Translations under genes and position numbers: made by a program
In this document: one piece after another, positions 1,860-18,297 of the stretch
Layout of the letters: each line of letters opens with the position of its first letter
Position numbering within the stretch: the stretch's first letter is position 1
Notes under the pieces: model-generated
Databases searched by the model: none
Seen by the model: only the letters and a program-made list of their open reading frames with translations
What the model was told of the DNA's origin: nothing
NCBI RefSeq assembly: GCF_001590835.1
Contig: NZ_LTAQ01000045.1
Span: forward strand, 10,795-74,794
Length of the DNA: 64,000 nucleotides
Direction of reading: 5' to 3'
Source: Bacillus gaemokensis
GTDB taxonomy: Bacteria > Bacillota > Bacilli > Bacillales > Bacillaceae_G

Positions 1860-2742
1860 TTCACTTTACATAATACGGAAAATAATTTCCTAACATGCTA
1901 TTAAAAAACTTCCTAATCCGTACACTAAAGGTGAAGATTAAGAAGAAGGTTGAATCATTCCCTTCACATATAAAAATCATTGTTTCTATTAATCTTTTCT
2001 TTTTATCGCTAATGATTCCATAATCCCCCTGCACTTTTTCCGTTTATCACCACCACCAGATCGAACGTACCCAAATTCAATTTTTTTGTTATAGCAATCA
2101 TTCCCCTCAAAGAAAAATTAATATCGTTATATGAATTTTAATGATAAGCAAACTGAATGTCTTACCTTAATCCCACAAAATGAACACTCAAATTAGCGTA
2201 TTTTCCTGCTAAATTTGTAAAAACTAATGCCTTAGTGTGATTTTTTATAAATAATCATCACTTATAAGCAAATACTTCATTTTTCCTTTCAATATTTAAC
2301 ACTATCGAAATAAAATTTACGATAAATTCACAATTTTTTATTTTTTATACTATATTCTGTTATATTGTTGTATAATAATCTTGAAAGCGCTTATTATTTC
2401 AATATACATAATTCAAATTAAGTTTTGACTAAAAATTCTAACAATTATCCTTATACTTTCATCAGGCGATCCCCTATCAATTACGGATGTACCAGATGAA
2501 ATCACCATTTTTTCCTTAAACTTACTTTATAACATGAAAGATTAATCTGGGTGATAAGTAATTGTGAATGTTTTTTTACAAAACGGATAAGTAATAATGT
2601 TTGGTATTATGTAAATTATTGTAATAACATAAGAGTAAAGATAATTATTTACATTCATTACTGGTTCATCAATTATGAAAAGAGCGAAATGCATCCTTTT
2701 CACATTAAAAAAAGGAATATATGCATTGGGAGGTTTAAACAA
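1860..2742. other. long intergenic region upstream of odhA
   Basis: About 880 bases hold no convincing gene. There is an AT-rich stretch with a TATAAT at 2371-2376 and a partial catabolite-responsive element at 2381-2396, then a leader of roughly 340 bases before odhA. A short - strand frame near 2000-2090 (GGGDKRKKCRGIMESLAI) may be gene debris, but it has no start signal and I do not call it. Confidence 0.4.
2371..2396 (+). promoter_or_regulatory. candidate -10 box and cre-like CcpA site for odhAB
   Basis: TATAAT (2371-2376) is followed four bases later by TTGAAAGCGCTTATTA. That matches the left half and centre of the cre consensus WTGNAANCGNWWNCAW but fails its CA near the right end. A CcpA site just after the -10 would suit glucose repression of the 2-oxoglutarate dehydrogenase genes; this is inference. 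Confidence 0.35.
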
Positions 2743-5628
2743 ATGACGAGGAAGAATACAACGACAAACCCTTGGGCCAAATTCCATGGTCCGAACCTTG
2801 GCTATGTTATTGAACAGTATGATCGTTACGTGACTAATGAAGGTTCTGTTGATCCGGAATTACAAGAGCTTTTTGAAACTTTTGGAGCTCCGACGTTCCA
2901 AGCAGATGTCGTAACAGGGGACAACAAAGAAACAAATTTTTCTCCTCAAAACACAGGAAACATTGAAAAGATTCTTAAAGTCGTTCAACTTGTTGAGCAT
3001 ATCCGTTCATTCGGTCATACATCGGCTCATATTAATCCAATGGAAGAGCCTGCTGATGGGCAATCTCTCATCGAGAAAGCAATGAACGAATTGAGCGATG
3101 CAGATTTGAAAGCGATTCCAGCTAAAACAGTATGGACAAATGCACCAGAGGGTATTCACACAGCATTTGATGTAATTCATAGATTAAAAGAGGTTTATAC
3201 AAAATCTTTAGCTTATGAATTCTCACATATACAAGATAGTGAAGAACGCGCGTGGTTGCATCGAATGGTGGAATCAAATTCCCTGCGTCAACCATTAACA
3301 AATAAAAAACGAACTGCTCTCTTAAAACGCTTAACAGCTGTTGAAAGTTTCGAGCAATTCTTGCATAAAACATTCGTTGGTCAAAAACGTTTCTCCATCG
3401 AAGGCGTTGATATGCTTGTACCTGTACTAGATGAAATTATTCTAGAAGGTGCTAAAGGCGGCGTAAACGATGTCATGATTGGTATGGCTCACCGTGGTCG
3501 TCTAAGCGTACTCGCTCATGTATTAGAAAAACCATATAGTCACATGTTCGCAGAATTCAAACATGCGACTATTGAATCTGATAAATCACAAGATGTAATA
3601 AATAGTAGTGTTGGCTGGACTGGCGATGTGAAATACCATTTAGGTAGAGAACAAGTTGTCGGATCTGAAGAAGCTAGTACACGTGTTACATTAGCAAATA
3701 ACCCGAGTCACCTGGAGTTTGTTAATCCAGTTGTTGAAGGTTATGCACGTGCTGCTCAAGAAGATCGTAAAAAAGCTGGTTATCCTGAACAAGACGTTTC
3801 AAAATCATTCGTAATTTTAGTTCATGGTGATGCTGCATTCCCTGGTCAAGGTATTGTATCTGAAACATTGAACTTAAGCAGATTGAATGCATACCAAACT
3901 GGTGGAACAATTCATGTTATCGCAAATAATGCAATCGGCTTTACAACAGATAGCTATGATTCTCGTTCTACAAAATATTCAAGCGACCTTGCGAAAGGGT
4001 TCGATATTCCGATCGTTCACGTGAACGCTGATGATCCTGAAGCTTGTCTTGCTGCTGCTAACCTTGCAATTCAATATCGTATGCTGTTCAAAAAAGACTT
4101 CTTAATCGATTTAATCGGTTACCGTCGTTACGGTCATAACGAAATGGATGACCCAGCAGTTACGCAACCACAAGTTTACAAAAAAATTAAAAACCACCCA
4201 ACTGTAAGAGCCTTATATGCAAGCCAATTACAAGCTGCAGGCGTCCTAAATACAGATGAGGTTGAAACAATTACTCAGTTTATACAAGAACAATTAAAAG
4301 CTGAATATGCACAAGTACCACCAGCAGATACAAGTGAAGCGGCAATTCACGTTAAAGTTCCAGACGTTGTTGCGAAAGGAATTCAACCAATCGATACCGG
4401 TCTTCCGCTTGAAACACTTCGCGCAATTAACGAAGGACTTTTATCTTGGCCAGAAGGCTTTAACGTATACCCTAAAGTGAAGAAAATTCTTGAGCGCCGT
4501 AAAGATGCTCTTGAAGATAACGGTAAAATTGAATGGGCACTTGCTGAATCTTTAGCATTCGCTTCTATTTTACAAGAAGGTACTCCAATTCGTTTAACTG
4601 GTCAAGATTCACAACGCGGTACGTTCGCACACCGTCATATCGTATTACATGATACAGAAACAAACGAAACCTATTCACCATTGCACCGATTACCACATAC
4701 ACGTGCATCATTCTCTGTTCATAACAGTCCGTTATCAGAGGCTGCTGTTGTCGGTTATGAATATGGTTATAATGTATTCGCTCCAGAAACTCTTGTTATG
4801 TGGGAAGCACAATACGGTGACTTCTCAAATACTGCACAAGCATTATTTGATCAATATGTTTCAGCAGGAAGAGCAAAATGGGGACAAAAATCAGGCCTAG
4901 TTCTTCTATTACCTCACGGTTACGAAGGTCAAGGACCAGAACACTCTAGCGCGCGCCCAGAACGTTTCTTGCAACTAGCTGCGGAAAATAACTGGACTGT
5001 TGCAAACTTAACAAGCGCGGCACAGTATTTCCATATCTTGCGCCGTCAAGCATCTATTCTTGGTACAGATGCTGTTCGACCATTAGTCATTATGACACCA
5101 AAAAGCTTACTGCGTCACCCACTTACAGCTTCATCGGGTAGCCAGTTAAGTGAAGAACGTTTCCACCCTGCTTTAGAACAAGAAAACCTTGGTATAAAAC
5201 CAAACAAGGTGAAACGTCTTGTTTTAACAACAGGTAAAATGGCAATTGATTTAGCAGCAGAGGTTGAATCTGGTAAACATCAGTATAATTTAGATGAAGT
5301 TCATATTGTTCGTATTGAGCAATTGTACCCATTCCCTGCTGAAAAAGTTCAATCTATTATGAAACGCTTTAAAAATTTAGAAGAAATCATCTGGGTGCAA
5401 GAAGAACCACGAAATATGGGTGCATGGCATTACATGGCTCCAATTCTGTTTGAACTTGCTGGCGATAAAGTAAAAACTGGATACATTGGACGTCCAGATC
5501 GTTCTAGCCCATCAGGTGGCGATCCATTTGCACACCGAGCTGAGCAGGAACTAATTGTTTCACATGCTTTAGACGTGAAATACAACTTCCGTCAAGATAA
5601 ACAAGAAATCGAAGTTTATAGCAACTAA
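2743..5628 (+). CDS. sucA: 2-oxoglutarate dehydrogenase E1 component
   Basis: OdhA/SucA, the thiamine-diphosphate E1 subunit of the TCA-cycle 2-oxoglutarate dehydrogenase complex, decarboxylates 2-oxoglutarate and passes the succinyl group to lipoyl-E2. The frame is open back to 2551, but ATG 2743 is the start: GGGAGG lies nine bases before it, and the protein then begins with the family N-terminus [14 protein letters not shown]. That gives 961 residues, close to other Bacillus OdhA proteins. The GDAAFPGQG segment (about residue 362) and [10 protein letters not shown] (about 395) are the thiamine-diphosphate/Mg region; [12 protein letters not shown] is also typical. The gene is followed after 153 bases by odhB, with a long hairpin between them. 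Confidence 0.97.
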
Positions 5629-5655
5629 ACGAAAAAATGATTCACCCTAGCTCAC

Positions 5656-5701
5656 TTGGGCAGAATTCCGTGACTTTAAGTTTCAAGGAACTTCTGCCCA
5701 A
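5656..5701 (+). repeat. long imperfect hairpin between odhA and odhB
   Basis: TTGGGCAGAATTCC and GGAACTTCTGCCCAA pair around a 17-base loop, with one bulged base. There is no T run, so it is not a normal terminator. It may be an RNA-processing or stability element in the odhA-odhB message, or a REP-like interspersed repeat. Confidence 0.55.
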
Positions 5702-5781
5702 TCAGGCTGGAAACTTTGAGATTACCGAAGAAAAAAGAAGACAAAACACACCGTTAGGCAAATAAGGGGAGGACATTTAAA

Positions 5782-7041
5782 ATGATCGAAATTAAAGTAC
5801 CTGAGCTTGCAGAATCTATTTCAGAAGGAACTATCTCACAATGGCTTATCAATGTAGGCGACAAAGTTGAGAAAGGTGGCAGCGTTGTTGAGCTTGAAAC
5901 TGATAAAGTCAATGTAGAAATCATTGCAGAAGATTCAGGTATTGTATCAAAACTACTAGGCGAACCTGGGGATACAGTTGAAGTTGGCGACATCATTGCA
6001 ATCTTAGATGCAAACGGTGCTGCAGTAAGCACACCTGCTCCCGCAGCAGCTCCAGAACAACCAAAACAAGAAATTGCAGAAGCTCCAAAAGCTGAGGCTC
6101 CAAGTGCTGCACCAGCTAAAACAGCTTTACAAGGTCTTCCAAATACAGATCGTCCTATCGCATCACCTGCCGCTAGAAAAATGGCACGCGAATTAGGAAT
6201 TGACTTAAATGAAGTACGTAGCACTGATCCACTTGGCCGTGTAAGACCACACGATGTACAAGCACATGCTGCTGCACCAAAAGAACAACCAAAACAAGAA
6301 AAAACTAGTCCAAAACCAGCTGCAACTACTGAATTTGAAAAACCAGTTGAACGCGTGAAAATGTCTCGTCGTCGCCAAACAATTGCAAAACGTCTTGTAG
6401 AAGTTCAACAAACATCTGCAATGTTAACAACATTTAATGAAGTTGATATGACTGCTATCATGGAACTACGTAAAGAGCGTAAAGATGCATTCGAAAAGAA
6501 ACATGATGTTCGTCTTGGCTTTATGTCATTCTTCACAAAAGCAGTTGTTGCAGCATTAAAACAATTCCCATTGTTAAATGCTGAAATTCAAGGTGATGAG
6601 CTTATCATTAAGAAATTCTATGATATCGGCATCGCTGTAGCAGCTCCAGATGGACTAGTTGTTCCTGTTGTGCGTGATGCAAACCAATTAAACTTTGCTG
6701 AAATCGAAAGTGAAATTCGTAATCTAGGTAAAAAAGCACGTGACAACAAACTTACATTAAAAGAACTACAAGGTGGCACATTTACAATTACAAACGGAGG
6801 CGTGTTCGGTTCCCTTATGTCAACACCAATCCTAAACAGCCCACAAGTAGGTATTCTCGGTATGCATAAAATCCAAGTAAGACCAGTTGCAATTGATGCA
6901 GAACGTATGGAAAACCGTCCGATGATGTACATTGCTTTATCTTACGATCACCGTATTGTAGATGGAAAAGAAGCAGTAAGCTTCCTTGTTGCAGTGAAAG
7001 AAATGCTTGAAGATCCAAAATCATTATTATTAGAAGGTTGA
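5782..7041 (+). CDS. sucB: dihydrolipoamide succinyltransferase (E2 of 2-oxoglutarate dehydrogenase)
   Basis: OdhB/SucB transfers the succinyl group from E1 to CoA. Its 419 residues show the standard order: one N-terminal lipoyl domain with the lipoyl lysine in ETDKVNVE (Lys42), an Ala/Pro/Lys-rich linker (about 78-110), a peripheral subunit-binding domain around 125-160 ([13 protein letters not shown]), a second Ala/Pro linker, and the CAT-type catalytic domain ending with SYDHRIVDG (His390, Asp394). AGGGGAGGA precedes the ATG. The gene forms an operon with odhA and is closed by the terminator at 7054-7090. E3 (lipoamide dehydrogenase) is not encoded here, as is usual because it is shared with other complexes. 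Confidence 0.97.
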
Positions 7042-7053
7042 TAGACCTAAAAT

Positions 7054-7090
7054 AAAAAGAGACTGTAGAAAATTCTACAGTCTCTTTTTA
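7054..7090 (+). terminator. intrinsic terminator of odhAB
   Basis: AAAGAGACTGTAG-AAAATT-CTACAGTCTCTTTTTATTT is a perfect stem with a T run, 13 bases after the odhB stop codon. Confidence 0.9.
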
Positions 7091-7464
7091 TTTAAAAAAC
7101 TAGCGCCCTCCTCTTCTCTATTTCAAACAGATCACTTAGTGAACTTATTCATCCTTACAATTAAGGCTTTTACGAACGTCACATAACACACTTTATCTCT
7201 TTGTTTTATATGAATTTAAAGATAAGAATATTACTAACCTTAAATAACAAGATACAAAACATAGAATACAAATGATATCCTATTGATTCCCCTCCTTTAT
7301 TCATTAACCAAGAAAAATTGATATAAGCAAATAGGCATTGAAATTAGAACACCCACACAAATGCGTTCATAGTTTGATGAGGAGAGTAACGAAGATTTTT
7401 ATGAATACTTTTTATTATTGAACTCTCCAATTCTTTTTATAACTGAAAAATACTCTATATAACT
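7091..7464. other. intergenic region before the TOMM precursor
   Basis: About 375 AT-rich bases with no gene that I can support. A GAGGAGAG run at 7379-7386 resembles a ribosome-binding site but leads to no open frame of useful length. The promoter of the bacteriocin-type locus should lie here; I see no near-consensus sigma-A boxes. Confidence 0.4.
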
Positions 7465-7476
7465 AGGAGGTTGAAA

Positions 7477-7662
7477 ATGTATAATTTTCAACCTGATATT
7501 CAATCATTGGGCTTAAACGATTTTCAAACAGGTGAAGTCACAGTTTGGGATCCACAAACTCAATCTTATTATGTTACTTATGATAGTCGTCAATATGGCG
7601 GTGGATGTTGGAGCGGGTGGCGGTGTTGGGGTGGATGGCATCGTTGCGGCGGCAGGCACTAA
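7477..7662 (+). CDS. TOMM bacteriocin precursor, heterocycloanthracin/sonorensin type
   Basis: This 61-residue peptide starts at ATG 7477, six bases after a perfect AGGAGG; the in-frame TTG at 7471 is too close to that site. The leader (residues 1-40, with DIQSLGLNDFQTGEVTVWD) is of the heterocycloanthracin/sonorensin precursor type. The core is GGGCWSGWRC then WGGWHRCGGRH: cysteines at 44, 50 and 57 in two near-repeats, CWSGWR and CWGGWHR, plus one serine that could also be cyclised. The cyclodehydratase genes directly downstream (7820-13280) would convert Cys/Ser to azoles. Known relatives have many Cys-Xaa-Xaa units and are usually unlinked to the maturation operon, so both core and position are atypical. 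Activity is unknown. Confidence 0.8.
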   Translation: MYNFQPDIQSLGLNDFQTGEVTVWDPQTQSYYVTYDSRQYGGGCWSGWRCWGGWHRCGGRH

Positions 7663-7698
7663 AACTAGTAATCACCAAATTAAACAGAACCGTTACAG

Positions 7699-7740
7699 AA
7701 AAAGGATTGTCTCTATATTTCATTGTAGGGGCAATCTTTT
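7699..7740 (+). promoter_or_regulatory. possible attenuator hairpin between precursor and maturation genes
   Basis: AAAAAGGATTGTCTC can pair with GGGGCAATCTTTT, with a bulge and G:U pairs, leaving a TTTT end. A leaky stop here would give more precursor than enzyme mRNA, a usual arrangement in peptide loci. The stem is imperfect and the call tentative. Confidence 0.35.
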
Positions 7741-7819
7741 AGGTTTCATAAAGGACAAATTACAGTACATACACTAATAATGTGCGCCTAGAACAAATTT
7801 ACTGATAAGGAGGAATAAA

Positions 7820-9739
7820 ATGAGTAATCTGCCGGCTTCTACAAAGCTAAAGATGAACAAAGATACCTTTTTCCTCCCCGATTCAAACGGGGGTGTCTAT
7901 TTTAGAAATAACTCTAGTTCATTTCGGATGCAAGGGGATGGTATCTACCAATGGATTGAAAAATTAATGCCTATGTTTAATGGAGATCACACTTTAGAAG
8001 AATTAACAACTGGACTCCCCCTCCCTTATCAAAATAGAGTATTTGAAATTGGAGACATTTTGTACCAAAATGGCTTTGTTCGAGATATAAGTCAAGATTC
8101 TCCGCACCAATTAGAAGATATCTTACTAGATAGATATGCATCACAAATCGAATTTTTAGAAGCTTCCTCTCACTCGGGTGCTCTGCAATTTCAAATGTAC
8201 AGAGAAGCTAAAGTCTTAGCAATTGGATCTGGAGCCATTTTCACTTCATTAGTTTCTTCTTTACTTGAATCTGGTTTACCCGAGTTTCACTATCTGATTA
8301 CCGACTCTGCAGGAACAAATCACGAACGGCTGAACGAACTTGTACAAAAAGCCCACGCTACCGATCCAAATGTACTTGTTCAAGAAATAGATACAACTAT
8401 AGATTGTTCTTTACAGGAAATATTTCAGCCTTTTGATTGGATTCTATATGTATCTCAAAATGGTAATATTGAAAAATTAAGAGCTATACATGCAATTTGT
8501 AGAGAAGAAAAGAAAAACTTCCTCCCTGCCATATGCTTGCAACAAATAGGTTTAGCTGGTCCCGTAGTTACTTCAGATGCTGAGGAATGCTGGGAATCGG
8601 CATGGCGCCGCATACATGAGACCACTCTTCAACACGATCAAGCACTAGAGCCCTTCTCTCCAATGGCTGGAGCTATGTTAGCAAACATTATTGTTTTTGA
8701 ATTATTTAAAAATATTACAGGCGCCTCAAATAGAGAAAAAAACAAACAATTTTTTTTACTAAATCCGAAAACACTAGAAGGCAATTGGCATACTTTCATT
8801 AAACATCCGCTTATAGCCACCAAAAATTTCACAATAGAACTGATACAAGACATTGGTAACACTCTCAAACGACATTCAAATCAAAACCAATCAAATGAAC
8901 TATTTTACTTTTTCGATCAACTAACCTCAAATTCATCTGGAATTTTTCATACTTGGGAGGAACAAGATCTAAAGCAATTGCCTTTATCTCAGTGCCGTAT
9001 TCAAGTTGTAAATCCATTATCAGATGGTCCCGCTGAACTTCTCCCGGTCATAACTTGCGGAGGCTTAACTCATGACGAAGCGCGCCGCGAAGCTGGTTTA
9101 ATCGGTATTGAAACCTATGTCACACAAATCGCTAATTTCCTTATTCCTGAACAAAATGAATATATGGGAATCGGGGCTGGAGAAACAATGTTAGAGAGCG
9201 TACATCGGGCGATCAAAAATCATTTAACAAACTCATTTCACAAAAGACAATTAAATAAAACAGAAGAAATTACAGAACTACAATTAACAGAAATTCACGA
9301 CAAACACTGCCGGTTCTATTTACATGCACTCTCCACAATACAGGAAACACCTAAAATCGGAATTGGAGAAGACGTACTAGGCTTTCCTGTTGTCTGGGTT
9401 GGTGTGCACAATCAGTGGTATGGTAGTACTGATATAAATGTAACATTAGCTCTAAGAAACTCATTACAAAACGCACTACTTCATGTACAAAATCAAAAAG
9501 CACCCCATAACTCTTATGTATTATGGGATTCATCTGTTCATTTACAAGAAACTCAATCATTTCGAACTGACATACAAGCAGAAGAAGCAACTCCGCAATT
9601 AGAGACCTTACAATCTGTCTTACAACATTTAAAAGAAAATAACCTTCATCCCTACGTCTTTGATTTAGCAATTGAACCCTTTTTAAAAGAAGGATTAGGC
9701 AACGTACTCGGTGTGTTAATTGAAGAGGAGGTAGACTGA
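7820..9739 (+). CDS. ThiF-like thiazole bacteriocin maturation protein
   Basis: The 639-residue protein matches the family described as putative thiazole-containing bacteriocin maturation protein (ocin_ThiF_like, TIGR03693), found in a three-gene operon of B. anthracis and relatives. The N-terminal half resembles ThiF/E1-like proteins (KVLAIGSGAIFTSLVSSLLESGL, about residues 130-155, like a degenerate nucleotide-binding loop). The C-terminal half includes the HDEARREAGLIGIE segment seen in SagD/YcaO-neighbouring proteins. AAGGAGG lies six bases before ATG 7820. Its stop overlaps the next start (TGATG at 9737-9741), implying translational coupling to the YcaO protein. Likely role: help present the precursor to the cyclodehydratase. 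Confidence 0.85.
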   Translation: MSNLPASTKLKMNKDTFFLPDSNGGVYFRNNSSSFRMQGDGIYQWIEKLMPMFNGDHTLEELTTGLPLPYQNRVFEIGDILYQNGFVRDISQDSPHQLEDILLDRYASQIEFLEASSHSGALQFQMYREAKVLAIGSGAIFTSLVSSLLESGLPEFHYLITDSAGTNHERLNELVQKAHATDPNVLVQEIDTTIDCSLQEIFQPFDWILYVSQNGNIEKLRAIHAICREEKKNFLPAICLQQIGLAGPVVTSDAEECWESAWRRIHETTLQHDQALEPFSPMAGAMLANIIVFELFKNITGASNREKNKQFFLLNPKTLEGNWHTFIKHPLIATKNFTIELIQDIGNTLKRHSNQNQSNELFYFFDQLTSNSSGIFHTWEEQDLKQLPLSQCRIQVVNPLSDGPAELLPVITCGGLTHDEARREAGLIGIETYVTQIANFLIPEQNEYMGIGAGETMLESVHRAIKNHLTNSFHKRQLNKTEEITELQLTEIHDKHCRFYLHALSTIQETPKIGIGEDVLGFPVVWVGVHNQWYGSTDINVTLALRNSLQNALLHVQNQKAPHNSYVLWDSSVHLQETQSFRTDIQAEEATPQLETLQSVLQHLKENNLHPYVFDLAIEPFLKEGLGNVLGVLIEEEVD

Positions 9740-11688
9740 TGGATCGTAAAATATTGATCGTAGGGGATGGCATACTCGCAGACTATGTAAATCAACAATT
9801 GTCTGTTCACTATCCAATCATTCATCAAAATACTCTTGAAGAAAACCTTCCTGAAAATATTCGTATCGCTCTCGTATTACACGATGGCTCTTCTCCCTCT
9901 ATACATCATAGAGCAGAACAAGTATTTCGATCCTCTAACATTCCATGGCTTCGGGGCTTTACTTCATTCGGCGAGGGTATTATTGGCCCTTACGTTCAAC
10001 CAGATAAAGTAGGATGTTCTCAATGTGCCGACGCACGGCGTTTTATAGCCGGTTTTGACCAAAAAGAAATGTGGGAATTACAACGAAGACATTCTTTAAA
10101 AACTGATGAGGTCATAAAGCGAGATATTTGCGCAACACAAACTGGTTTGTTACAAATGTCTCAGATTATTCACGCTGAAACAGAAAAAATAGTAACAGGA
10201 GGTCACACCTCTTTACAAGAAGAACTCATTTTACTTAACTTGCAAACATTTCAATGTTCACGGCATTCATTTCTTCCTGATCCTCTATGTCCAATATGTA
10301 GCACATTACCTGATGACACTGCAGCTGCTGCTTGTATTTCACTACAGCCAAGCTTGAAAACAAGCGATGCAAGTTATCGATGTCGTTCTATCAAAGATTT
10401 TAATACTTTTTTAACTAAAGATTATTTCGATTATCGAACTGGACTTTTAAATGGAAAAATGCAGCACCCCTTATTACCATTTGCTGATGTCATTGTAAAT
10501 ATGCCTTTACTTTTAGGTAATGAAGGCGTTGCGGGTCGAACACACTCATTCACAATTAGCGAATCAACAGCTATTTTAGAAGGATTAGAGCGATACTGCG
10601 GAATTGCCCCTCGTGGCAAAAAGACGAATGTTCATGGAAGCTATCGAGAGTTAGAAGATACAGCCCTTAATCCCCTCACAATTGGTGTACATACGGATGA
10701 ACATTATACCCAAACAGATTTCCCATTCAATCCATTTCACCCTGATTCCCCACAAGACTGGGTATGGGGGTATTCTTTATTACAAGATCGGCCACTTTTA
10801 GTACCAGAATCACTCGCTTATTATAGCTTAGGACACCGAGATGCTTTTGTTTATGAAACTTCAAATGGCTGCGCGATCGGAGGTAGTTTAGAAGAAGCCA
10901 TTTTCCATGGTATTTTAGAAATAGTCGAACGCGATGCCTTCTTGCTAACTTGGTATGCACAATTACCACTTCCCCGCCTTGATCTAGCTTCTGCACATGA
11001 TACCGAATTACAATTGATGATTGAACGAATGCGTACCATTACAGGCTATGATTTACATGTTTTTAATGCAACGATGGAGCATGGCATTCCGAGTATATGG
11101 GCAATTGCCAAAAATACAAAACCAGATGGGCTGAATCTCATCTGTGCAGGCGGGGCTCATATGGAACCACTGCGTGCTGTTAAAAATGCCATTCATGAAT
11201 TAGCAGGCATGCTGCTTACAATGGATGAAAAATTTGATACAAACAGACAAAAATACGAACAATGCTTACATGATCCATATCTTGTCACACAAATGGATGA
11301 TCATTGTATGCTTTATGGTTTACCTGAGGCTGAAGACCGTCTTCATTTTTTATTACATGATAATCGGCCCATACAAACATTTGAAGAAATGAATCATCTT
11401 AAATCTATTAATATAGATTTAACTGTAGATCTTCAACATCTTTTAGATAGATTACATCGCTTAGGTCTTGAAGTAATAGTCATTGATCAAACTGCTCCTA
11501 TCATAGAGCGTAACGGATTATATTGTGTAAAAGTATTAATCCCTGGCATGCTGCCAATGACATTCGGTCATCACTTTACTCGTGTAAAAGGATTGCAACG
11601 AGCACTTACTGTACCAATGAAACTTGGCTATACAAATGAACCACTGACGTTTGAACAGCTTAATCCACATCCGCATCCGTTTCCATAA
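9739..11688 (+). CDS. fused leader-binding / YcaO cyclodehydratase (TOMM)
   Basis: This 649-residue protein combines a SagC-like leader-peptide-binding part with a YcaO (SagD-like) domain, the ATP-dependent enzyme that turns Cys/Ser/Thr of the core peptide into azolines. A Zn-binding pair is visible: CSQCADARR near residue 94 and CPICSTLPDD near 184. The YcaO part runs from about 215 to the end, with GRTHSFTISESTAILEGLERYCG, NGCAIGGSLEEAIFHGILEIVERDAF (nucleotide/Mg-binding acidic residues) and the Pro-rich tail NPHPHPFP, a conserved end important in azoline-forming YcaO proteins. It is coupled to the upstream ThiF-like gene by a one-base overlap and followed after 23 bases by the dehydrogenase gene. 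Confidence 0.9.
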   Translation: MDRKILIVGDGILADYVNQQLSVHYPIIHQNTLEENLPENIRIALVLHDGSSPSIHHRAEQVFRSSNIPWLRGFTSFGEGIIGPYVQPDKVGCSQCADARRFIAGFDQKEMWELQRRHSLKTDEVIKRDICATQTGLLQMSQIIHAETEKIVTGGHTSLQEELILLNLQTFQCSRHSFLPDPLCPICSTLPDDTAAAACISLQPSLKTSDASYRCRSIKDFNTFLTKDYFDYRTGLLNGKMQHPLLPFADVIVNMPLLLGNEGVAGRTHSFTISESTAILEGLERYCGIAPRGKKTNVHGSYRELEDTALNPLTIGVHTDEHYTQTDFPFNPFHPDSPQDWVWGYSLLQDRPLLVPESLAYYSLGHRDAFVYETSNGCAIGGSLEEAIFHGILEIVERDAFLLTWYAQLPLPRLDLASAHDTELQLMIERMRTITGYDLHVFNATMEHGIPSIWAIAKNTKPDGLNLICAGGAHMEPLRAVKNAIHELAGMLLTMDEKFDTNRQKYEQCLHDPYLVTQMDDHCMLYGLPEAEDRLHFLLHDNRPIQTFEEMNHLKSINIDLTVDLQHLLDRLHRLGLEVIVIDQTAPIIERNGLYCVKVLIPGMLPMTFGHHFTRVKGLQRALTVPMKLGYTNEPLTFEQLNPHPHPFP

Positions 11689-11711
11689 GCCATGATAAGG
11701 AGGCAAGATTG

Positions 11712-13280
11712 ATGCAACTAGAAACATTTTTACACCATTTACAGTTTTCTATCGATGAAATTATGAACCAAAATACAGAAGTTAGCTGGGACGATGCACC
11801 GCTTCCCTATAAATTATATCGTGATCTACCTATCATTCCTCTTTCTCTAGAGGTCCCCTTAACACTACGAGATCAAAATCTGTCTACTGAACCAACTTTA
11901 GAAACAGTCGGGCATTTTCTTTGGTATACATTCGGCCTAACTCAATTTTGTCAGCCTACCTTCAATTTAGAAGAGCAAAAAACAACAAATATATGCAGGA
12001 GATTTATTCCATCAGGAGGGGCTTTATATCCAAACGAATTATATTTATATTTAAAAATCAACAATTATCCACATGGAATATATCATTACGATGTAGCACA
12101 TCATCGACTCATATTACTACGTGAAGGAGATTTTGATACTTATCTCTCTCAAGCACTTGGAAATCGATGCAACCTATCCGCTTGTTTCGGGACTGTTTTC
12201 GTATCAACAATGTTCTGGAAAAACTTCTTTAAATATAATAATTTTTCTTATCGTCTCCAAGGTCTAGATACTGGTGTTCTCATTGGTCAACTACTAGAAG
12301 TCTCTAAACAATTTGGTTATACATCTGGTGTATACTTTCAATTTCTTGATAGGGCCATCAATCATTTACTTGGACTATCTGAACAAGAAGAAAGCGTGTA
12401 TGCAGTTATTCCGTTATCTAGCCATCTTGCAAACGAATGGTTTCACCATGAGAATACATCTGGAGCAACCTTCACATCTCATGAACTATTACAGGATCTC
12501 CCGCTCTTGCAACACGAACACTTTATTCGTTCAAAGAACATTACCGAGTACCCTATGATAACAAAAATGAATACAGCATCTATGTTAGAATCGACAGAAT
12601 CATTTCGCACTATGTCTGAAGAAGCTGACATAGTGCATAGCAAACAAACTTTAGCACTCCCTCAGGTGAAACAATTGTCATACGATTTCGCGGCCGTTTG
12701 TCAAAAACGTCATTCACCTGATATAGATTTTGTCTTAAGAAAAATAAGAAGTACACAACTAGCTACTTTACTTCAAGAAGCAAGTCTTTCTTTTCCCTAT
12801 CAAAATGATTTAGATGGAAAACAACTGAAAATGAAATCACGCGTTTCGCTGTATGGCTGCTTTTATAACATAGACGGTATACCAAATGGTGCCTATTCCT
12901 ATAACAATAGTACACATACATTAGAACAGATTCAATTAGGTGACCTCCGCTATCCACTATACTCAGGCATGACAATGGATAATGTGAACCTCTTCCAAGT
13001 ACCGCTCTGTCTACACGTAATAGGTAACAAAGATTATTTCAAACACAAATTGGGATATAGAGGCTATCGCATTCAACAAATGGAAGCCGGGATACTTGTG
13101 CAGAAGCTCGTTATAGCTGCCTCTGCCATGGATATGGGGGGGCATCCTCTCTTAGGGTTTGATGCAAACCTATGTGACAAACTATATGAAATCGATACAA
13201 CAAGAAAAACAACGCTCATTCAAATCCCTGTTGGCCCTTATCGCCCTCGCACCTGGCTAAAAGGATATTTGCATAGTTAA
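11712..13280 (+). CDS. SagB-type FMN dehydrogenase (TOMM), two nitroreductase-like halves
   Basis: SagB-type dehydrogenases oxidise azolines to azoles. The 522-residue protein contains two related nitroreductase-like halves. The first has PSGGALYPNELYLYL (about residue 99) and YRLQGLDTGVLIGQLLEVSKQFG. The second has YRGYRIQQMEAGILVQKLVIAA and DMGGHPLLGFDANL near the C-terminus. ATG 11712 is preferred over the TTG one codon earlier: AAGGAGG (11697-11703) then lies eight bases upstream. It is the last gene of the maturation operon and is followed by a terminator. No dedicated transporter, protease or immunity gene is visible in the locus, so these functions must be elsewhere or absent. Confidence 0.88.
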   Translation: MQLETFLHHLQFSIDEIMNQNTEVSWDDAPLPYKLYRDLPIIPLSLEVPLTLRDQNLSTEPTLETVGHFLWYTFGLTQFCQPTFNLEEQKTTNICRRFIPSGGALYPNELYLYLKINNYPHGIYHYDVAHHRLILLREGDFDTYLSQALGNRCNLSACFGTVFVSTMFWKNFFKYNNFSYRLQGLDTGVLIGQLLEVSKQFGYTSGVYFQFLDRAINHLLGLSEQEESVYAVIPLSSHLANEWFHHENTSGATFTSHELLQDLPLLQHEHFIRSKNITEYPMITKMNTASMLESTESFRTMSEEADIVHSKQTLALPQVKQLSYDFAAVCQKRHSPDIDFVLRKIRSTQLATLLQEASLSFPYQNDLDGKQLKMKSRVSLYGCFYNIDGIPNGAYSYNNSTHTLEQIQLGDLRYPLYSGMTMDNVNLFQVPLCLHVIGNKDYFKHKLGYRGYRIQQMEAGILVQKLVIAASAMDMGGHPLLGFDANLCDKLYEIDTTRKTTLIQIPVGPYRPRTWLKGYLHS

Positions 13281-13331
13281 AAATCTGCCCTATGCTCCGT
13301 ACATCGTTACTGGCAAAGGGCGGATTTTTTT
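13281..13331 (+). terminator. terminator of the TOMM operon
   Basis: AAATCTGCCCT pairs with AGGGCGGATTTTTTT (one T:G pair) across a 28-base loop, directly after the dehydrogenase stop. Confidence 0.6.
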
Positions 13332-13400
13332 AAAGGGATTTGAATTATCCAAAACGAATATACAAATTTAGGGATTTCATATATAAAAGGAGGGATAAGG

Positions 13401-13565
13401 TTGAGCGTATTACAAAAATTAATTGAACAGGCTAAAAATCCTAGAGGTTCTATTGATTCTTCCATGCTTTATATTATGAATACTGTACATACAAGATTAA
13501 CAAATTGGGCTCTGCAAATATTAAAAAGCAGACCTTCCAAGGCCTGCTTTTCACTACTAAATTAA
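13401..13565 (+). pseudogene. N-terminal stub of a class I methyltransferase
   Basis: Beginning at TTG 13401, seven bases after AAAGGAGGG, a 54-codon frame reads LSVLQKLIEQAKNPRG and then SMLYIMNTVHTRLTNWALQIL. This is the conserved start of a B. cereus group SAM-dependent methyltransferase of about 200 residues, whose SAM-binding motifs should follow but are missing. The frame instead runs into the hairpin at 13524-13551 and the 3' end of the next gene. It reads as a deletion remnant with an intact translation start, so a short useless peptide may still be made. Confidence 0.6.
13524..13551 (-). terminator. terminator of the 13967-13557 gene
   Basis: AAAAGCAGACCTT-CC-AAGGCCTGCTTTT forms a near-perfect stem just past the stop of the leftward gene and inside the methyltransferase stub. 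Confidence 0.75.
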
Positions 13566-13967
13566 TTTAAAGATACTCTTAATTTGTCTTGCGAATAACC
13601 AGTTTTTCGTGCCACAGTTATCATTTAAACTGTCCAACATAATGGAATTTCCATTAGAGAACTTCAACTGTAATGTTGTATTTTTATCATTTGTTTTTAG
13701 ACTTATATCTGTAATGTCTTCATACTTTAATTTTTCAACTTGAATATACTCTTCTTGCGACTGTCCCATGACAACATGGTCTTGAAAGAAGAAAAATACT
13801 TCCACTTTCTTACCAAAACAAAACACATTTTTCGTATAAATTAATGTCGCATTATCAAGTCCAACACATAATTCTTTCATTTCTTGAACAACTTGTCCAA
13901 AATCTTCTTCGTGTCTTGCGTTTGAATCAGCAATCCACTCTTCTATTGTTTTCATATTTATTGCCAT
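13557..13967 (-). CDS. hypothetical protein, possible PH-like fold
   Basis: This 136-residue soluble protein is not one I recognise with confidence. The N-terminal third is helical and acidic (MKTIEEWIADSNARHEEDFG). The rest alternates short strands (VEVFFFFQDHVVMGQ, YEDITDISLKT, TTLQLKFSNGNSIMLDSL), which resembles a small PH-like or YvbH-type beta domain. It could belong to one of the Bacillus-only DUF families such as DUF3908; that is a guess. GGGGGAGCAAC precedes the ATG at 13967. The gene stands alone, with its own terminator on the left. Confidence 0.6.
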   Translation of the reverse strand: MAINMKTIEEWIADSNARHEEDFGQVVQEMKELCVGLDNATLIYTKNVFCFGKKVEVFFFFQDHVVMGQSQEEYIQVEKLKYEDITDISLKTNDKNTTLQLKFSNGNSIMLDSLNDNCGTKNWLFARQIKSIFKLI

Positions 13968-14127
13968 GTTGCTCCCCCTGCTTCATTCATTACTTTGTTT
14001 ATAATGTACAATCCTACTTCTTATGTATGAAAAAATAAATACTATATGAAAATATAATCTATAAGTACTATATTTTTCAAGGCTAAATATTATACCATAT
14101 ATTTTTCGCACGATCTGTTTTTACATC

Positions 14128-14160
14128 ATGAAAAAAATAGTACTCCTTAAAGAAGTACTA
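14128..14160 (-). terminator. terminator of the CoA-disulfide reductase gene
   Basis: On the - strand AATAGTACTTC-TTTAAG-GAGTACTATTTTTTTC overlaps the stop codon of the gene at 14158, giving a stem with a T run. Confidence 0.8.
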
Positions 14161-15492
14161 TTCCGCTCGCCTTGCCGCTTGTTGAATGGGATCCCAAACG
14201 CTATTATATGGCGGTGCATAACTTAAATCCACATCTTCTAAATCATGAATACTCATTTTATGAAAAAGTGCCATTGCAATGACATCAATTCGTTTGTCCA
14301 CGCCTTCTTCCCCAATAACTTGTCCGCCTAATAATTGTTTTGTATCAGAACGATACAGTAATTTAACATAGAGCGGCGTTGCCTCTGGATAATAGCCAGC
14401 CACACTTGTTGAATCTACCTTCACTGTTTTATATGGTACTTTTAATCCATTCGCCTCTTTTTCATTTAATCCCGTTCTTGCTAATGTAAGCCCCATAAAT
14501 TTAATAATACCCGTACCGAGAGTTCCTTTAAATGCTCTTCGCTTATCTACCATATTGAGTCCAGCCAGTCGCCCTTGTTTATTCGCAGTAGTGCCGAGCG
14601 GGATATGATCTTGTATTGCTTTTATCACATGATAGTGTGTTGCACAATCTCCAGCTGCATACACATCTTCCACATTTGTTTGCATGTACGCATTTACCTC
14701 TATGGCTCCTTTTTTATTGGTACGCACATTTGTCCCGGTAAGAAACTCTGTATTTGGCTGCACACCAACTGAAACTAAAACGAGATCCGTTTCATATGTT
14801 CCCTTGTCTGTTTCAATCCATTCGACTTTTTCATTGCCTTTAAAAGCTTTTACATTTTCGCTTGTTACAATCTCAATATTGTGCTTTTCAGCTTCTTCAT
14901 GTATGTAATTTGCCATATCAGCATCATAAATTGTACCAATATGCTCATTTCGTTCAATCATTCGCACCTTTTTCCCAAGCTCGACAAATGTTTCGGCCAT
15001 CTCAAGACCAATTGCTCCACCACCAATAATCGTCACTTGCTCGACATGGTTCGTTTTCAATGTCTCTAATATTTCATGCGCATGTGGAATTGTTTTCAAA
15101 AGATGAATCCCTCGTAAATTTGATCCTTCCCAATCCGGCATAACTGGTCTAACTCCTGTCGCAATTAATAAGCGATCGTATTTATATTGAAATGTATCGT
15201 TCGTATTTATATGTATCCCATGTACAATTTTGTTTTCAGTATCAATCCGCGTCACTTCATGATGTACTTTTGCATCAATTCCATATTTATCGCGGAACGT
15301 CTTAACATCTCGTGCAATGAGCTTTTCCGTTGAAGAAATTACACCGCTAATCACATAAGGAAGACCACACTGTGCGTATGAGTATATTTCTCCCTTTTCT
15401 AATGTAACAACTTTCGCATTCTTATCATTTCTAACAATCTGCATCGCTGCACTCATACCAGCTGCATCTCCGCCAATAATTACATAGTTCAC
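14158..15492 (-). CDS. cdr: CoA-disulfide reductase / FAD-dependent NAD(P)H oxidoreductase
   Basis: The 444-residue flavoprotein belongs to the single-cysteine pyridine nucleotide-disulfide oxidoreductases. The FAD-binding start is [15 protein letters not shown]. The redox residue Cys42 lies in [10 protein letters not shown], not a CxxxxC pair, which is diagnostic of CoA-disulfide reductase and NADH oxidase. The NAD(P)H motif is [15 protein letters not shown], and the second FAD motif is [11 protein letters not shown]. The C-terminal dimerisation region with two tyrosines (Tyr near 367 and Tyr in [12 protein letters not shown]) completes the CoADR signature known from B. anthracis and S. aureus. 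It keeps CoA, a major thiol alongside bacillithiol in these bacteria, reduced. Monocistronic, leftward. Confidence 0.9.
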
Positions 15493-15611
15493 TCTACCAC
15501 TCCTTTGTTACTTCTCTATTGTTTACATTCTCCAAAAGCTACACAAATAAATCTTTTTTCTTTATGAGTTTCTTATACACAAGATACATTCTTCCCTCTT
15601 TTTTCACAAAC

Positions 15612-15650
15612 AAAAAGGTACATCGGTCTAATCCATGATGCACCTTCTTT
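15612..15650 (-). terminator. terminator downstream of the zinc-ribbon genes
   Basis: On the - strand AAGGTGCATC pairs with GATGTACCTTTTTGTTTG across a 12-base loop, about 20 bases beyond the end of the zinc-ribbon fragment at 15671. Confidence 0.6.
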
Positions 15651-15670
15651 GAAAAAGCTCTCACATATAG

Positions 15671-15760
15671 CTATTCTTTCGACTTTATAAAAGTTTCTCG
15701 TTTATTTACTATCTGCTGATTTTCTTCTTTTCTCGCCCCACACTTTGTACAAACATTCAT
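15671..15760 (-). pseudogene. 29-residue zinc-ribbon fragment
   Basis: From ATG 15760 the frame reads MNVCTKCGARKEENQQIVNK and ends at TAG 15671. It has the first CxxC knuckle of a zinc ribbon, but the second knuckle appears mutated (VNKR where CNKC would be expected). AAAGG lies eleven bases upstream. It lies just below a gene encoding an intact zinc-ribbon membrane protein (15792-16571). I read it as decayed remains of a second zinc-ribbon gene; a real micropeptide is less likely. Confidence 0.4.
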
Positions 15761-15791
15761 CTATTTAGCTACCTTTTCATTAGAAGTTTGC

Positions 15792-16571
15792 TCAACCTCT
15801 AGCTAAGGTATCAAATATTGTTTTGATATAAGACCAAAGTACAATCCAACTTACAATTGAAATGCAAATATTTGCGATAATAAGTGTATAAACTGGATCT
15901 AATCCACCTCGATCTAACTTTGATATTGAAACAATTGTACAAATAGTCATCCACGTCACAGCAAAACCTAAAAATATTGGCGCTAGAAAACTTAACAAAA
16001 AGCTAAATAGCAGCGCAATAATGAGTATAGCGACAACTGGTGTTGAAACTGTTCCCCATACTCCTAATGCTTCTAAAAAGGAAAAAGATGATTTCATCAA
16101 CTTACCACTTACAAAGACAATAAATCCAATAAAGAGAAATAAAATTAATAAAAAGAAAAAGACCTTAACTGATTCTCCAAAAAAAGAGGGTGTTTCTTCA
16201 GGTACAAATCCAGTACGACTTATCATACTCGTTGCAATCGATGCGGCCCCGCTCATTATTCGGTAAAAAACACAAGCTAAAAAAAAGCAAATGAGAACAA
16301 GACTTGTAATCCCATTTCTTACCTCGATATGTCCACTTTTCATAATTGCCGACGGAGATTTTAATGCATTCTTACAAAACTGAAAGTAGCCACTTGCAAA
16401 TTGTTTGGCCTGCTCTACCGTTTCATTCAAACGACTCGCCTGAACTGATGATGATGATTGAGACAATTGCTGTTCATCTTGTTCTACAACTGGCTCCGCT
16501 ATCTGATGCCCACAATTACCACAAAATTTCGCTTCATCTGTATTCTCCACGTTGCACTTTGGACATGTCAT
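15792..16571 (-). CDS. zinc-ribbon, YIP1-like integral membrane protein
   Basis: Start ATG 16571 is chosen because AAGGGGATG precedes it and the protein then opens with a zinc ribbon, CPKC (3-6) and CGNC (17-20). That leaves 259 residues. After a Gln/Ser-rich linker and an amphipathic segment come five to six hydrophobic helices from about residue 95 to the end, including GFIVFVSGKLMKSSFSFLEAL, which recalls the Yip1/DUF1282 membrane family. Its role is unknown; such proteins are often called zinc-ribbon domain proteins in Bacillus. It is divergent from the M50-like gene at 16754. Confidence 0.75.
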   Translation of the reverse strand: MTCPKCNVENTDEAKFCGNCGHQIAEPVVEQDEQQLSQSSSSVQASRLNETVEQAKQFASGYFQFCKNALKSPSAIMKSGHIEVRNGITSLVLICFFLACVFYRIMSGAASIATSMISRTGFVPEETPSFFGESVKVFFFLLILFLFIGFIVFVSGKLMKSSFSFLEALGVWGTVSTPVVAILIIALLFSFLLSFLAPIFLGFAVTWMTICTIVSISKLDRGGLDPVYTLIIANICISIVSWIVLWSYIKTIFDTLARG

Positions 16572-16768
16572 TCTCTCATCCCCTTTAGCATGTATCTTGT
16601 AGGCTATTACAGATTCAATATATGTACGAGGAGGCAAAACATGACTCCAAGAGAGGGATCATATATTTCTTATCTTTCCAATAACTAAATTTTTATTCAC
16701 CGTTGACAAAATGCTATTATATAGAGAACACTTTATTTTATTACAACAAATAGATGGGACGAAAAATT

Positions 16769-17602
16769 ATGGAGCTAGCATACTCACTTTTTCATATATT
16801 CATTACAAGTTTGGTACAATTATTTTCTTTAATCGGTATCATTATTTTGGTTGGTTTTTTATTAGGATATTTAGAAACTCTTACACGAACATATTGGACG
16901 AGAGCTTTTGGTAGAAAAGGCTTCCTTTTATCAGCATGGATCGGCGTTCCCATTCATGAATTGGGACATGCTGTTATGTGCGTATTATTCCGGCATCAAA
17001 TTGTAGCAATTCAATTGTTCCCAACCAATACAAATAACGGTTATTTAGGCTATGTAAAACATCAATATAACCCCAAAAGTATCTATCAAAGAATAGGAAA
17101 TTTCTTCATTGGGATTGCTCCTATTTTCTCAGGAATGATCGTATTAATACTGTCAATGTATTATTTTGTTCCGCAATCCTTCTCATTATTTATAAACAAT
17201 CTTGAGATAAACACCCAATCTCCTTCTATAAATATAGAAGTGATACAAAATATTTTTTTATCATCCATGCTCTTAGTAAAAAGTCTTTTTACCATTAGCA
17301 ACTTATCCACTCCTTCTTTTTGGCTTTTTCTTTTTATTGCAATTTGCATCTCTACACATATCGCCTTGAGTAAACCAGATATTGAAGGTTCATTAGATGG
17401 ATTGATTACGATATTCATATTCCTTTTTCTTTTTAATACAATAGCAGGATTTTTTCACTATGATAGTAACCAGCTAATCGGAAATCTAGTGAAATACAAT
17501 ACGTACTTACTCGCTTTCTCTAGCGTAGCTCTACTATTTTCATGTATCGCTGTATTCATTAGCTTTATTTGTTATCAAATAAAAACAGCTAGTTCAAAAT
17601 GA
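16769..17602 (+). CDS. M50-like membrane metallopeptidase
   Basis: A multi-pass membrane protein (about six helices) carrying HELGHAVMCVLF, the HExxH zinc motif of site-2/M50 proteases, placed at the end of a hydrophobic segment as in that family. GNFFIGIAPIFSG, about 50 residues on, may be the partner membrane segment, though the classical NxxPxxxxDG motif is not evident. ATG 16769 is chosen over 16754: a weak GGGA lies ahead of it and the protein then begins with a hydrophobic helix; 16754 has no ribosome-binding site. Length is 277 residues. Substrate unknown. It converges on the DUF2278 gene through a shared terminator. Confidence 0.7.
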   Translation: MELAYSLFHIFITSLVQLFSLIGIIILVGFLLGYLETLTRTYWTRAFGRKGFLLSAWIGVPIHELGHAVMCVLFRHQIVAIQLFPTNTNNGYLGYVKHQYNPKSIYQRIGNFFIGIAPIFSGMIVLILSMYYFVPQSFSLFINNLEINTQSPSINIEVIQNIFLSSMLLVKSLFTISNLSTPSFWLFLFIAICISTHIALSKPDIEGSLDGLITIFIFLFLFNTIAGFFHYDSNQLIGNLVKYNTYLLAFSSVALLFSCIAVFISFICYQIKTASSK

Positions 17603-17617
17603 ACTAGCTGTTTTTAT
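17581..17617. terminator. bidirectional terminator shared by convergent genes
   Basis: AAAAACAGCTAGTTCA-AAA-TGAACTAGCTGTTTTT is a perfect 16-base stem containing the + strand stop codon and abutting the stop of the leftward gene at 17617. Confidence 0.92.
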
Positions 17618-18297
17618 TAATCCTTCTTATAATTACACTGCTCCACAGGAACACGAGCATGTCCCTCTTCATCTGTACACCAAGACTGCGATTGAAACGC
17701 GAGGAAAATTCCAATCCATTGCTGTTTTTTCTCAAAGTGAATGAATATCCCGCCATCTTGCCACACACCATCATCATTTTCCCACTTCTCCACATTCCCT
17801 TGATTCATGTGAATATCATGTATACCATTACCCGGTTTAAAATGAAAATATCGATCTGGTGTATTATTCTCTGGACCCCATCGTTCTCCAAATGCATAAA
17901 TAATTGCCTTTTCCTCTATTGCCCGTTTTATATAATATTCTATTTTTTCATTTAAATCATTGTTAGCTCCCGATTTTTCTGGTGGCAAAGGAATCATCTG
18001 TTTCGAATCAAATAAATTTCCCCTCACATAATCTAAAGCCACCCTTGGTTCATTATTTTTCACTTCCGTAAAACCAAAAGGTAATGTTGATAAAATCGTA
18101 ATGGCTTCCGACCCAATGTTCTCACTTGCAAAATATAATACTTCTGATGGATAACTTTGTGACTTTACATTAACTGCAATGCGGTAGTCTACTCCCGCTT
18201 CATCTTGCAAATGAACTTGATAATGAGGTGTTTTCCCTTTTCCAATCATAGATTGTATTGCTGTGCCTTTTAAGACGCCGTAGTTTTTTAAGGGCAT
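17617..18297 (-). CDS. DUF2278 family protein (YukJ-like)
   Basis: The protein opens with PLKNYGVLKGTAIQ and contains VALDYVRGNLFD and the HFKPGNGIHDIHMNQGN segment, all characteristic of the YukJ/DUF2278 family, whose function is unknown. WQDGGIFIHF and WIGIFLAFQSQSW near the C-terminus are also conserved there. Start ATG 18297 gives 226 residues: AGGAG lies nine bases upstream, whereas the alternative ATG three codons earlier lies almost on that site. The protein is soluble, with no signal peptide. Monocistronic, with a shared terminator downstream. Confidence 0.85.
   Translation of the reverse strand: MPLKNYGVLKGTAIQSMIGKGKTPHYQVHLQDEAGVDYRIAVNVKSQSYPSEVLYFASENIGSEAITILSTLPFGFTEVKNNEPRVALDYVRGNLFDSKQMIPLPPEKSGANNDLNEKIEYYIKRAIEEKAIIYAFGERWGPENNTPDRYFHFKPGNGIHDIHMNQGNVEKWENDDGVWQDGGIFIHFEKKQQWIGIFLAFQSQSWCTDEEGHARVPVEQCNYKKD

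Follow-up and report, generated by a model that had tools for sequence, protein, structure and literature searches.

Which peptide do heterocycloanthracin-type enzymes modify if the precursor encoded next to them carries only three cysteines? This question is raised by a locus of Bacillus gaemokensis, a member of the Bacillus cereus group, that lies within NZ_LTAQ01000045.1, positions 10,795-74,794 (+). The window, as we call this whole 64 kb stretch, contains four genes in the order A-F-D-B, and all four match curated models above their cut-offs. Judged by these matches, the locus is a complete TOMM/LAP set of the HCA (heterocycloanthracin/sonorensin) type. Ring-forming cysteines usually number eight or more in such peptides. 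With three of them and an abundance of tryptophan, the encoded peptide represents either a new product reduced to a minimum or a precursor that is being lost. We favour, with a probability of about 0.58, the reading that A is the cognate, ancestrally placed precursor of this locus, whose core has contracted and become Trp-rich. The features discussed below, in coordinates of the window, are the following.

7050..7093 (+): terminator-like inverted repeat after sucB, perfect 21-nt arms, 2-nt loop
7465..7470 (+): Shine-Dalgarno sequence AGGAGG of the precursor gene, read in the sequence 6 nt before the ATG
7477..7662 (+): precursor peptide gene A, 61 aa; TIGR03601 through its leader, 56 bits, E 4.5e-15, cut-off 35
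7477..7605 (+): leader, residues 1-43 (putative boundary), aligned with 119 other leaders
7606..7659 (+): core CWSGWRCWGGWHRCGGRH, 3 Cys, 4 Trp, two near-repeats
7701..7740 (+): predicted hairpin, 17 pairs (some G-U), 3' arm ending in TTTT; z -5.2 in the best 56-nt window
7820..9739 (+): F protein, ocin-ThiF-like, predicted to bind the leader; TIGR03693, 998 bits
9739..11688 (+): D protein, fused E1-like/YcaO cyclodehydratase; TIGR03604, 455 bits, TIGR03882, 157 bits
11712..13280 (+): B protein, SagB-type dehydrogenase; TIGR03605, 225 bits, Pfam PF00881

The precursor gene and its core

The initial annotation had described an HCA-type leader, cysteines at positions 44, 50 and 57, and the near-repeats CWSGWR and CWGGWHR, and the TIGR03601 match together with a reading of the sequence bears this out. 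The ORF 7477-7662 passes the curated cut-off, the cysteines are spaced 6 and 7 residues apart, the near-repeats occupy residues 44-49 and 50-56, and the peptide ends in RCGGRH. F, fused YcaO and SagB proteins are encoded alongside it. Could such a short ORF, with a low-complexity core end of 69% G+C (38% across 2500-15500), be intergenic DNA with chance similarity to a precursor? This explanation is refuted in substance by the E-value of the TIGR03601 match, by a leader shared with linked leaders of other genomes (see below) and by a position equal to that in 110 of 119 other loci, and we give it practically no credence.

Four or more tryptophans in the 18 codons of the core have a chance of 1.8e-4 at 1/61 per codon and of 0.011 at 0.05 per codon. 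Between the near-repeats there are three synonymous changes and one non-synonymous change, a count biased by the fact that the amino acid sequence is what drew attention to the repeat. Neither a stop nor a frameshift was found inside the ORF. Nor can the core be explained simply as a frameshifted Cys-rich one, an origin that we rejected because neither of the other two frames is Cys-rich. A search of the 64-kb window with the family profile (ORFs of 35-200 aa, both strands, E < 1e-4) found no second precursor, and a literature search with the exact string CWSGWRCWGG gave no match.

Linkage and cysteine content among HCA-type loci

Linkage of precursor and operon, which had been presented as remarkable, is ordinary and the rule among the loci read. 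Each of the 119 other HCA-type loci in the detailed set has a precursor ahead of F on the same strand, in 110 cases within about 415 nt and in nine at 3.9-10 kb, and the order F-D-B is found in 117 of 121 stretches, the other four being partial or not followed up. Linked precursors have also been described in B. licheniformis (PMC2674419), in a four-gene Parageobacillus locus (excerpt of PMC11270796, compared by description), and within 10 kb for 14 HCA precursors (Cox 2015, excerpt of PMC4603692). The gap in the window, given earlier as about 160 bases, measures 157 nt (7663-7819), and all three maturation genes are intact. The initial statement that precursors of B. anthracis and B. cereus are distal and rich in Cys-Xaa-Xaa units agrees with Haft 2009 (PMC2674419); the window precursor departs from that arrangement. 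Given this linkage in all 119 of the other loci, the far-off precursors known from the B. cereus group are probably a derived arrangement and the linked one, as had been suggested, is probably ancestral. Precursors seem to have become unlinked independently in genome G522 as well: the 2.7 kb read upstream of its operon contain no precursor, and its other contigs hold three dispersed Cys-rich TIGR03601 matches, two of them over the cut-off.

TIGR03601 alone found matches in 94 of 397 genomes of the order (81 over cut-off) and in none of 14 controls; an iterated family profile raised the 94 to 110. G334 (partial F match, 29%) was left out as not HCA, G170 is represented by L158 in place of L125, and the precursors of L069 and L132 were seen only in the longer stretches L170 and L169, respectively, that of L170 by a weak profile score (E 0.011) and its likeness to L073. 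G284 has a weak TIGR03601 match and no F match. A further set of 53 loci, five of them from genomes already counted (G177, G051, G084, G153, G002), was drawn from listings of 30 places each and is a lower bound; L211-L213, from genomes already read, were excluded. The profile was passed by 37 of the 53, and of the remaining 16, 15 were accepted by eye because a Cys-rich ORF lies upstream. Only L216 gave no precursor by profile or eye, so that linkage is true of all other loci read except one. An F protein like that of the cereus group was found neither in genome contigs (four loci, best segment 55%) nor in the order sample (best 60%), F identities in tblastn of the further loci reached at most 59%, and we take the searched sets to be without the cereus group. 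Plasmids gave no precursor and only distant or partial F matches, and viral contigs gave no F match; one precursor match on a viral contig was set aside as it spans 9 residues only.

The core itself is atypical in one respect and familiar in another. Counted after 28 leader residues (the rows of L112 and L099 are not anchored), each of the other 120 precursors of the detailed set has at least eight cysteines and those of the further set at least nine, so that the claim of an atypical core stands for the cysteine number; the repeated Cys-Xaa-Xaa units of a Cys-rich core are likewise missing. It does not stand for the Cys-Trp units, which occur in B. licheniformis and in the CWGGG or CWGGW C-termini of L049, L173-L176 and L083.

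The lowest cysteine count of all precursors read would fit a recent relic, a linked precursor that became redundant once dispersed Cys-rich precursors were served in trans, as described for the B. cereus group, and whose repeats collapsed so that it yields nothing of use, while the enzymes went on to serve a distal precursor. The findings in G522 point the same way. However, the core is regular and Trp-rich, the reading frame is uninterrupted, the gene has kept its leader, its Shine-Dalgarno sequence and the spacing undamaged, and a hairpin is predicted behind it. We regard this main rival to the cognate reading as possible and on balance doubtful.

Conservation of the leader

The leader carries F4-Q-P-D-I8, a putative RRE-binding motif of the FXXXB type (as defined in an excerpt of PMC10634744); in the corresponding columns 99 of the 119 other leaders have F and all 119 have L or I at the second position. 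Residues 2-30 are 62-72% identical to the leaders of L048, L049, L052 and L171-L177; between these loci and the window, F identity is 54-59%. The segment WDPQTQ is shared with these loci only (10 of 119). In the band of F identity from 0.55 to 0.62, leader identity averages 0.59 for pairs with the window and 0.57 for other pairs; in this closest band the leader has thus not diverged out of proportion to F, which argues against a decaying gene. In the bands from 0.35 to 0.55 the leader identities of the window are 0.4-1.1 sd below the mean of the others, and its mean residual against F identity is the 24th lowest of 119. L050, L051 and L053-L055 have F identities of 0.55-0.57, yet their leaders are only 35-41% like that of the window. 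In addition, Pro6, inside the FXXXB motif, and Asn14 are found in none of the 119 other leaders, and the unique Pro6 counts for a relic.

A leader that is conserved while the core contracted could also mean that the ORF encodes a small RRE ligand or decoy, which tunes F for distal precursors and for which the core is dispensable. An HCA precursor does bind HcaF through its leader and the RRE, according to an excerpt of PMC12325987. Such a role is not known to have a precedent, however, and it leaves the regular Trp/Cys repeats unexplained; it appears very improbable to us.

The maturation enzymes

The operon encodes an RRE-bearing F protein, a fused C/D cyclodehydratase and a dehydrogenase, the composition of an HCA maturation operon (the length of the C-domain truncation aside). 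Residues 12-90 of F match the PbtF structure 8t19 (E 3e-9). The D protein ends in NPHPHPFP and matches LynD, TruD and MusD, and B, with two nitroreductase stretches and an alternative TTG start at 11709, matches 3eo7 and McbC. At near-invariant columns F has no departure (0/61) and B a single one (1/82). D has seven substitutions at such columns, the joint highest of 119, and in a separate count that includes one gap it has eight departures at 159 columns (others: mean 1.0, maximum 17). Its conservation is 0.8-1.5 sd below the prediction based on F, and the seven unusual substitutions are a further point for a relic.

In the F and D trees the window clusters with the WDPQTQ loci or with L052, the pairing with L052 having low support (0.33 and 0.57, respectively). 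The B tree resolves its position no further than a basal place in a clade of 83 members (0.48). Because the WDPQTQ loci are the tree partners of the window for both F and D, precursor and enzymes look co-inherited on these comparisons.

Surroundings of the locus and the precursor-F gap

The repeat at 7050-7093 sets sucAB apart from the HCA locus. A scan for promoters and consensus terminators gave no more signals than shuffled sequence and listed neither this repeat nor the hairpin at 7701-7740, and an Rfam scan of 7000-14000 found no match. For a 54-aa ORF downstream of the operon the family search was empty, with weak matches only (best E 0.46 and 0.25).

The whole precursor-F gap folds with z -2.1, and 3 of 200 shuffles were equally stable. 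An inverted-repeat search did not recover the hairpin at 7701-7740. A hairpin between A and F with z below -2 is predicted in 92 of 111 loci, the window included, and that of the window is a possible partial terminator or attenuator.

A model for the locus and its relation to known systems

We weighed for the cognate reading the curated matches, the F-D-B order, the linkage, the A-F hairpin, the agreement of leader and F, WDPQTQ, the conserved residues of F and B, the synonymous bias of the near-repeats, the Trp excess and the HCA literature. Against it we counted the three cysteines, Pro6 and Asn14, the mismatch to leaders of the L050 type, the D substitutions and the low tree support. If the cognate reading holds, A would have a promoter of its own behind the sucB terminator, and enzyme transcripts could be held below those of the precursor by the predicted hairpin. 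The N-terminal RRE of F would bind the leader around F4-I8 and F would hand the peptide to D, which might cyclise Cys44, Cys50, Cys57 and perhaps Ser46. B would then oxidise the rings to thiazoles, and a protease and an exporter encoded elsewhere would free a small basic Trp/thiazole peptide. The calculated [M+H]+ of full-length A is 7136.14 unmodified and 7076.06 with three thiazoles. Formation of thiazolines by Hca enzymes has been reconstituted (excerpt of PMC4603692).

The window shares leader family and F-D-B operon with the cereus-group heterocycloanthracins (Haft 2009, PMC2674419; TIGR03601), and also the sucAB neighbourhood (Pfam), described by Cox 2015 as succinyltransferase and 2-oxoglutarate dehydrogenase (excerpt of PMC4603692). 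In contrast, the precursors of that group lie far from the operon; they carry Cys-Xaa-Xaa repeats and terminate in WNWWII or [FY]EY (PMC2674419). A second substrate for one operon has precedent, because two protoxins occur in 8 of 16 strains and two maturation sets in only one of those (Haft 2009, PMC2674419). With some reserve we suggest that a cereus-group lineage may have kept the ancestral linked precursor as a minimal substrate, short, basic, Trp-flanked and giving at most three thiazoles, for the same enzymes that serve long distal Cys-rich precursors elsewhere in the group. If so, the locus would be the switch of HCA precursors from cis to trans caught mid-course, and the role or target of the product could differ from those of the long polythiazole peptides. 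Such a locus would tell us how small a number of heterocyclisable residues, and how wide a spacing between them, F-dependent YcaO systems accept in nature, and offer a handle on why cereus-group precursors left the operon.

The Priestia locus L052 and L048, L049 and L171-L177 agree with the window in gene order, spacing, WDPQTQ and nearest F proteins, whereas their cores contain 8-16 Cys and no more than one Trp. Within the type formed by sonorensin and the B. licheniformis protoxin, the B. licheniformis precursor is likewise linked to the scaffold and cyclodehydratase genes and contains Cys-Trp-Ser triplets, but it resembles BA_2677 in cysteine content and spacing and is thus Cys-rich (PMC2674419). 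Thiopeptide pathways (PbtF, TclI) have the RRE-bearing F in common with the window, and the further thiopeptide-type enzymes are absent among its scanned neighbouring ORFs. The genes BC1248-50 of B. cereus are presumably orthologues of the window operon. In biofilm cells of B. cereus a 'putative bacteriocin (BC1248-50)' and a member of the HCA family are up-regulated, according to an excerpt of PMC6962202.

The HCA locus and its neighbourhood

The initial annotation had described a linked, Trp-rich precursor with only three cysteines and a leader of the heterocycloanthracin/sonorensin (HCA) type, and the curated protein models agree with this: the precursor gene matches the family model and is followed, after a gap of 157 nt, by the three maturation genes.

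Features of the HCA locus in the window
7050-7093: perfect inverted repeat 3' of sucB, dividing sucA/sucB from the HCA locus
7477-7662: precursor gene A, 61 aa; TIGR03601 at 56 bits (cut-off 35); good Shine-Dalgarno sequence
directly after the gap following A: gene F, ocin-ThiF-like protein; TIGR03693, above the curated cut-off
third gene, after A and F: gene D, fused E1-like/YcaO cyclodehydratase; above the curated cut-off
last of the F-D-B genes: gene B, SagB-type dehydrogenase; above the curated cut-off

F aligns over residues 12-90 with the PbtF structure 8t19; the matches of D are LynD, TruD, and MusD, and those of B 3eo7 and McbC. According to the Hca and thiopeptide literature, the leader is bound by F via the RRE, D, which depends on F, makes azolines, and B oxidises these (PMC4603692, PMC7470986, PMC12325987, PMC10634744). 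Because F, D, and B have these roles there, the RRE of the window F would be expected to bind the leader, D to form azolines, and B to oxidise them, by which the core CWSGWRCWGGWHRCGGRH could obtain up to three thiazoles. The initially suggested oxazole, which would be at Ser46, is no more than a possibility.

The 5' neighbours, assigned by Pfam, are 2-oxoglutarate dehydrogenase E1 (sucA) and a 2-oxoacid dehydrogenase acyltransferase (sucB). Transporter, protease, and immunity families were not found among the scanned ORFs of 2551-18306, which included few ORFs shorter than 150 aa. The CoA-disulfide reductase of the window is identical to PDB chain 3cgb_A, a B. anthracis protein, at 379 of 444 residues (85.4%). 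Together with the operon and its surroundings, which have been described for the cereus group (Haft 2009, PMC2674419; Cox 2015, PMC4603692), this identity suggests a divergent member of that group other than B. anthracis. Directly after the dehydrogenase gene there is a 54-aa ORF (13401-13565, + strand) with a good Shine-Dalgarno sequence, for which the family search gave no match and which we take to resemble the N-terminal part of class I SAM methyltransferases. A gene of this class is among those given for cereus-group HCA clusters (Cox 2015). The ORF is possibly the remnant of a truncated methyltransferase.

The gap between A and F contains a predicted 17-pair hairpin (7701-7740, z -5.2), and z is below -2 for this gap in 92 of 111 loci (best-56-nt-window statistic, 20 shuffles per locus). 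The whole gap of the window folds at z -2.1, and the hairpin was absent from the inverted-repeat search and the terminator scan of the window. In several loci the stem is of the GCCCCTGCA...TGCAGGGGC type. The predicted hairpins look like attenuators of HCA operons, and that of the window might act as a partial terminator setting the ratio of precursor to enzymes.

Linkage of precursor and maturation genes

The main sample, drawn from the order to which the Priestia relative belongs, comprised 397 genomes. F matched in 111 of these; 110 were kept, leaving out one partial match of 29%, and together with a Brevibacillus and a Neobacillus genome and seven more genomes of the nearest relative's family they provide 119 loci. 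No genome of the comparison collections was recognised as cereus-group. An HCA-type precursor is encoded 5' of F on the same strand in all 119 loci, at a distance of about 100-415 nt in 110 and of 3.9-10 kb in nine, each from another genome (L128, L130, L135-L138, L140, L158, L169). The curated TIGR03601 model alone matched in 94 of the 397 genomes and in none of 14 controls, and precursor calls beyond these 94 depend on an iterated profile built in this analysis. The order F-D-B is found in 117 of 121 stretches, with stretches cut short among the remaining four. An extra set of 53 loci (48 from new genomes) combined the order of Brevibacillus with a sample of the class; 37 have an upstream profile match, and in 15 a Cys-rich upstream ORF was accepted by eye. 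The sole case without a linked precursor, within the 2.7 kb read upstream, is genome G522 (L216/L237), which has three TIGR03601 matches, each with 12-13 Cys, on other contigs (L238, L241, L242; two above the cut-off, the third at 31 bits). This is apparently an independent dispersed, multi-precursor arrangement, in a draft assembly that might be contaminated.

Linked loci have been published for B. licheniformis (PMC2674419), for Parageobacillus (four genes, PMC11270796) and for 14 precursors within 10 kb of the operon (PMC4603692). The linked arrangement is thus the common one among the loci read, and linkage as such, which had been regarded as remarkable, is ordinary. The suggestion that it is ancestral is probably right: because linkage is so common, we infer by parsimony, without formal reconstruction, that it came first and that dispersal in the cereus group is derived, with G522 as an apparent parallel.

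Tandem precursor pairs with differing Cys-rich cores precede a single F gene in L057 (genome G326), L223, and L229. The linked precursor of L124 (genome G398; 2081-2398 of the stretch turned with F on the + strand) ends in WPWWFI, and cereus-group precursors ending in WNWWII are known (Haft 2009, PMC2674419); given this likeness, it may be connected with how the distal precursor type arose.

The unusual core

By leader and locus the window precursor belongs to the HCA family, and the atypical core noted initially stands, with three Cys and four Trp and without the Cys-Xaa-Xaa repeats characteristic of the family. Once 28 residues of leader are set aside, each of the other 120 precursors in the detailed set retains 8-19 Cys (median 14), and their cores contain no Trp in 104 cases, one in 14, and two and three in one case each. 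Over the whole ORF only the window and L172 (8 Cys) have fewer than nine Cys, and nine is the minimum in the extra set. Trp adjoining Cys is not foreign to the family, as CWGGG or CWGGW is found close to the C-terminus in L049, L173-L176, and L083, and Cys-Trp-Ser triplets in B. licheniformis (Haft 2009, PMC2674419). Because precursor length differs through Cys-Xaa-Xaa indels (Haft 2009), a contraction of the repeats sparing both ends would be a natural route to the window core.

Working precursor or relic

The question is whether the window precursor yields a working minimal product or is a recent relic, and the sequences speak on both sides. In favour of function, residues 2-30 of the leader share 62-72% identity with the leaders in ten loci that have the leader segment WDPQTQ and F proteins 54-59% identical to that of the window, and in the F and D trees the window joins these loci or the Priestia relative L052. 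Support for the pair with L052 is 0.33 (F) and 0.57 (D), that for the 26-member F clade 0.998 and for the 10-member D clade 0.54; the B tree does not resolve the placement. Almost all near-invariant residues are kept in F and B. The hairpin predicted between A and F, with counterparts in most loci, also counts on this side. The two near-repeats of the core differ by three synonymous changes and one non-synonymous change (Fisher p 0.005, rounded sites), a weak sign of function because the repeat was chosen for its amino-acid likeness. Against function, the leader has a Pro6 and an Asn14 that are absent from all 119 other leaders. In five loci whose F identity is 0.55-0.57 the leader is just 35-41% like that of the window, and at lower F identities the leader identity of the window is under average (24th lowest of 119). 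In addition, D carries seven substitutions at near-invariant columns, the joint highest of 119, and its conservation is 0.8-1.5 sd under the F-based prediction, while that of B is slightly over. These departures in the leader and D could reflect relaxed constraint or adaptation to an altered substrate.
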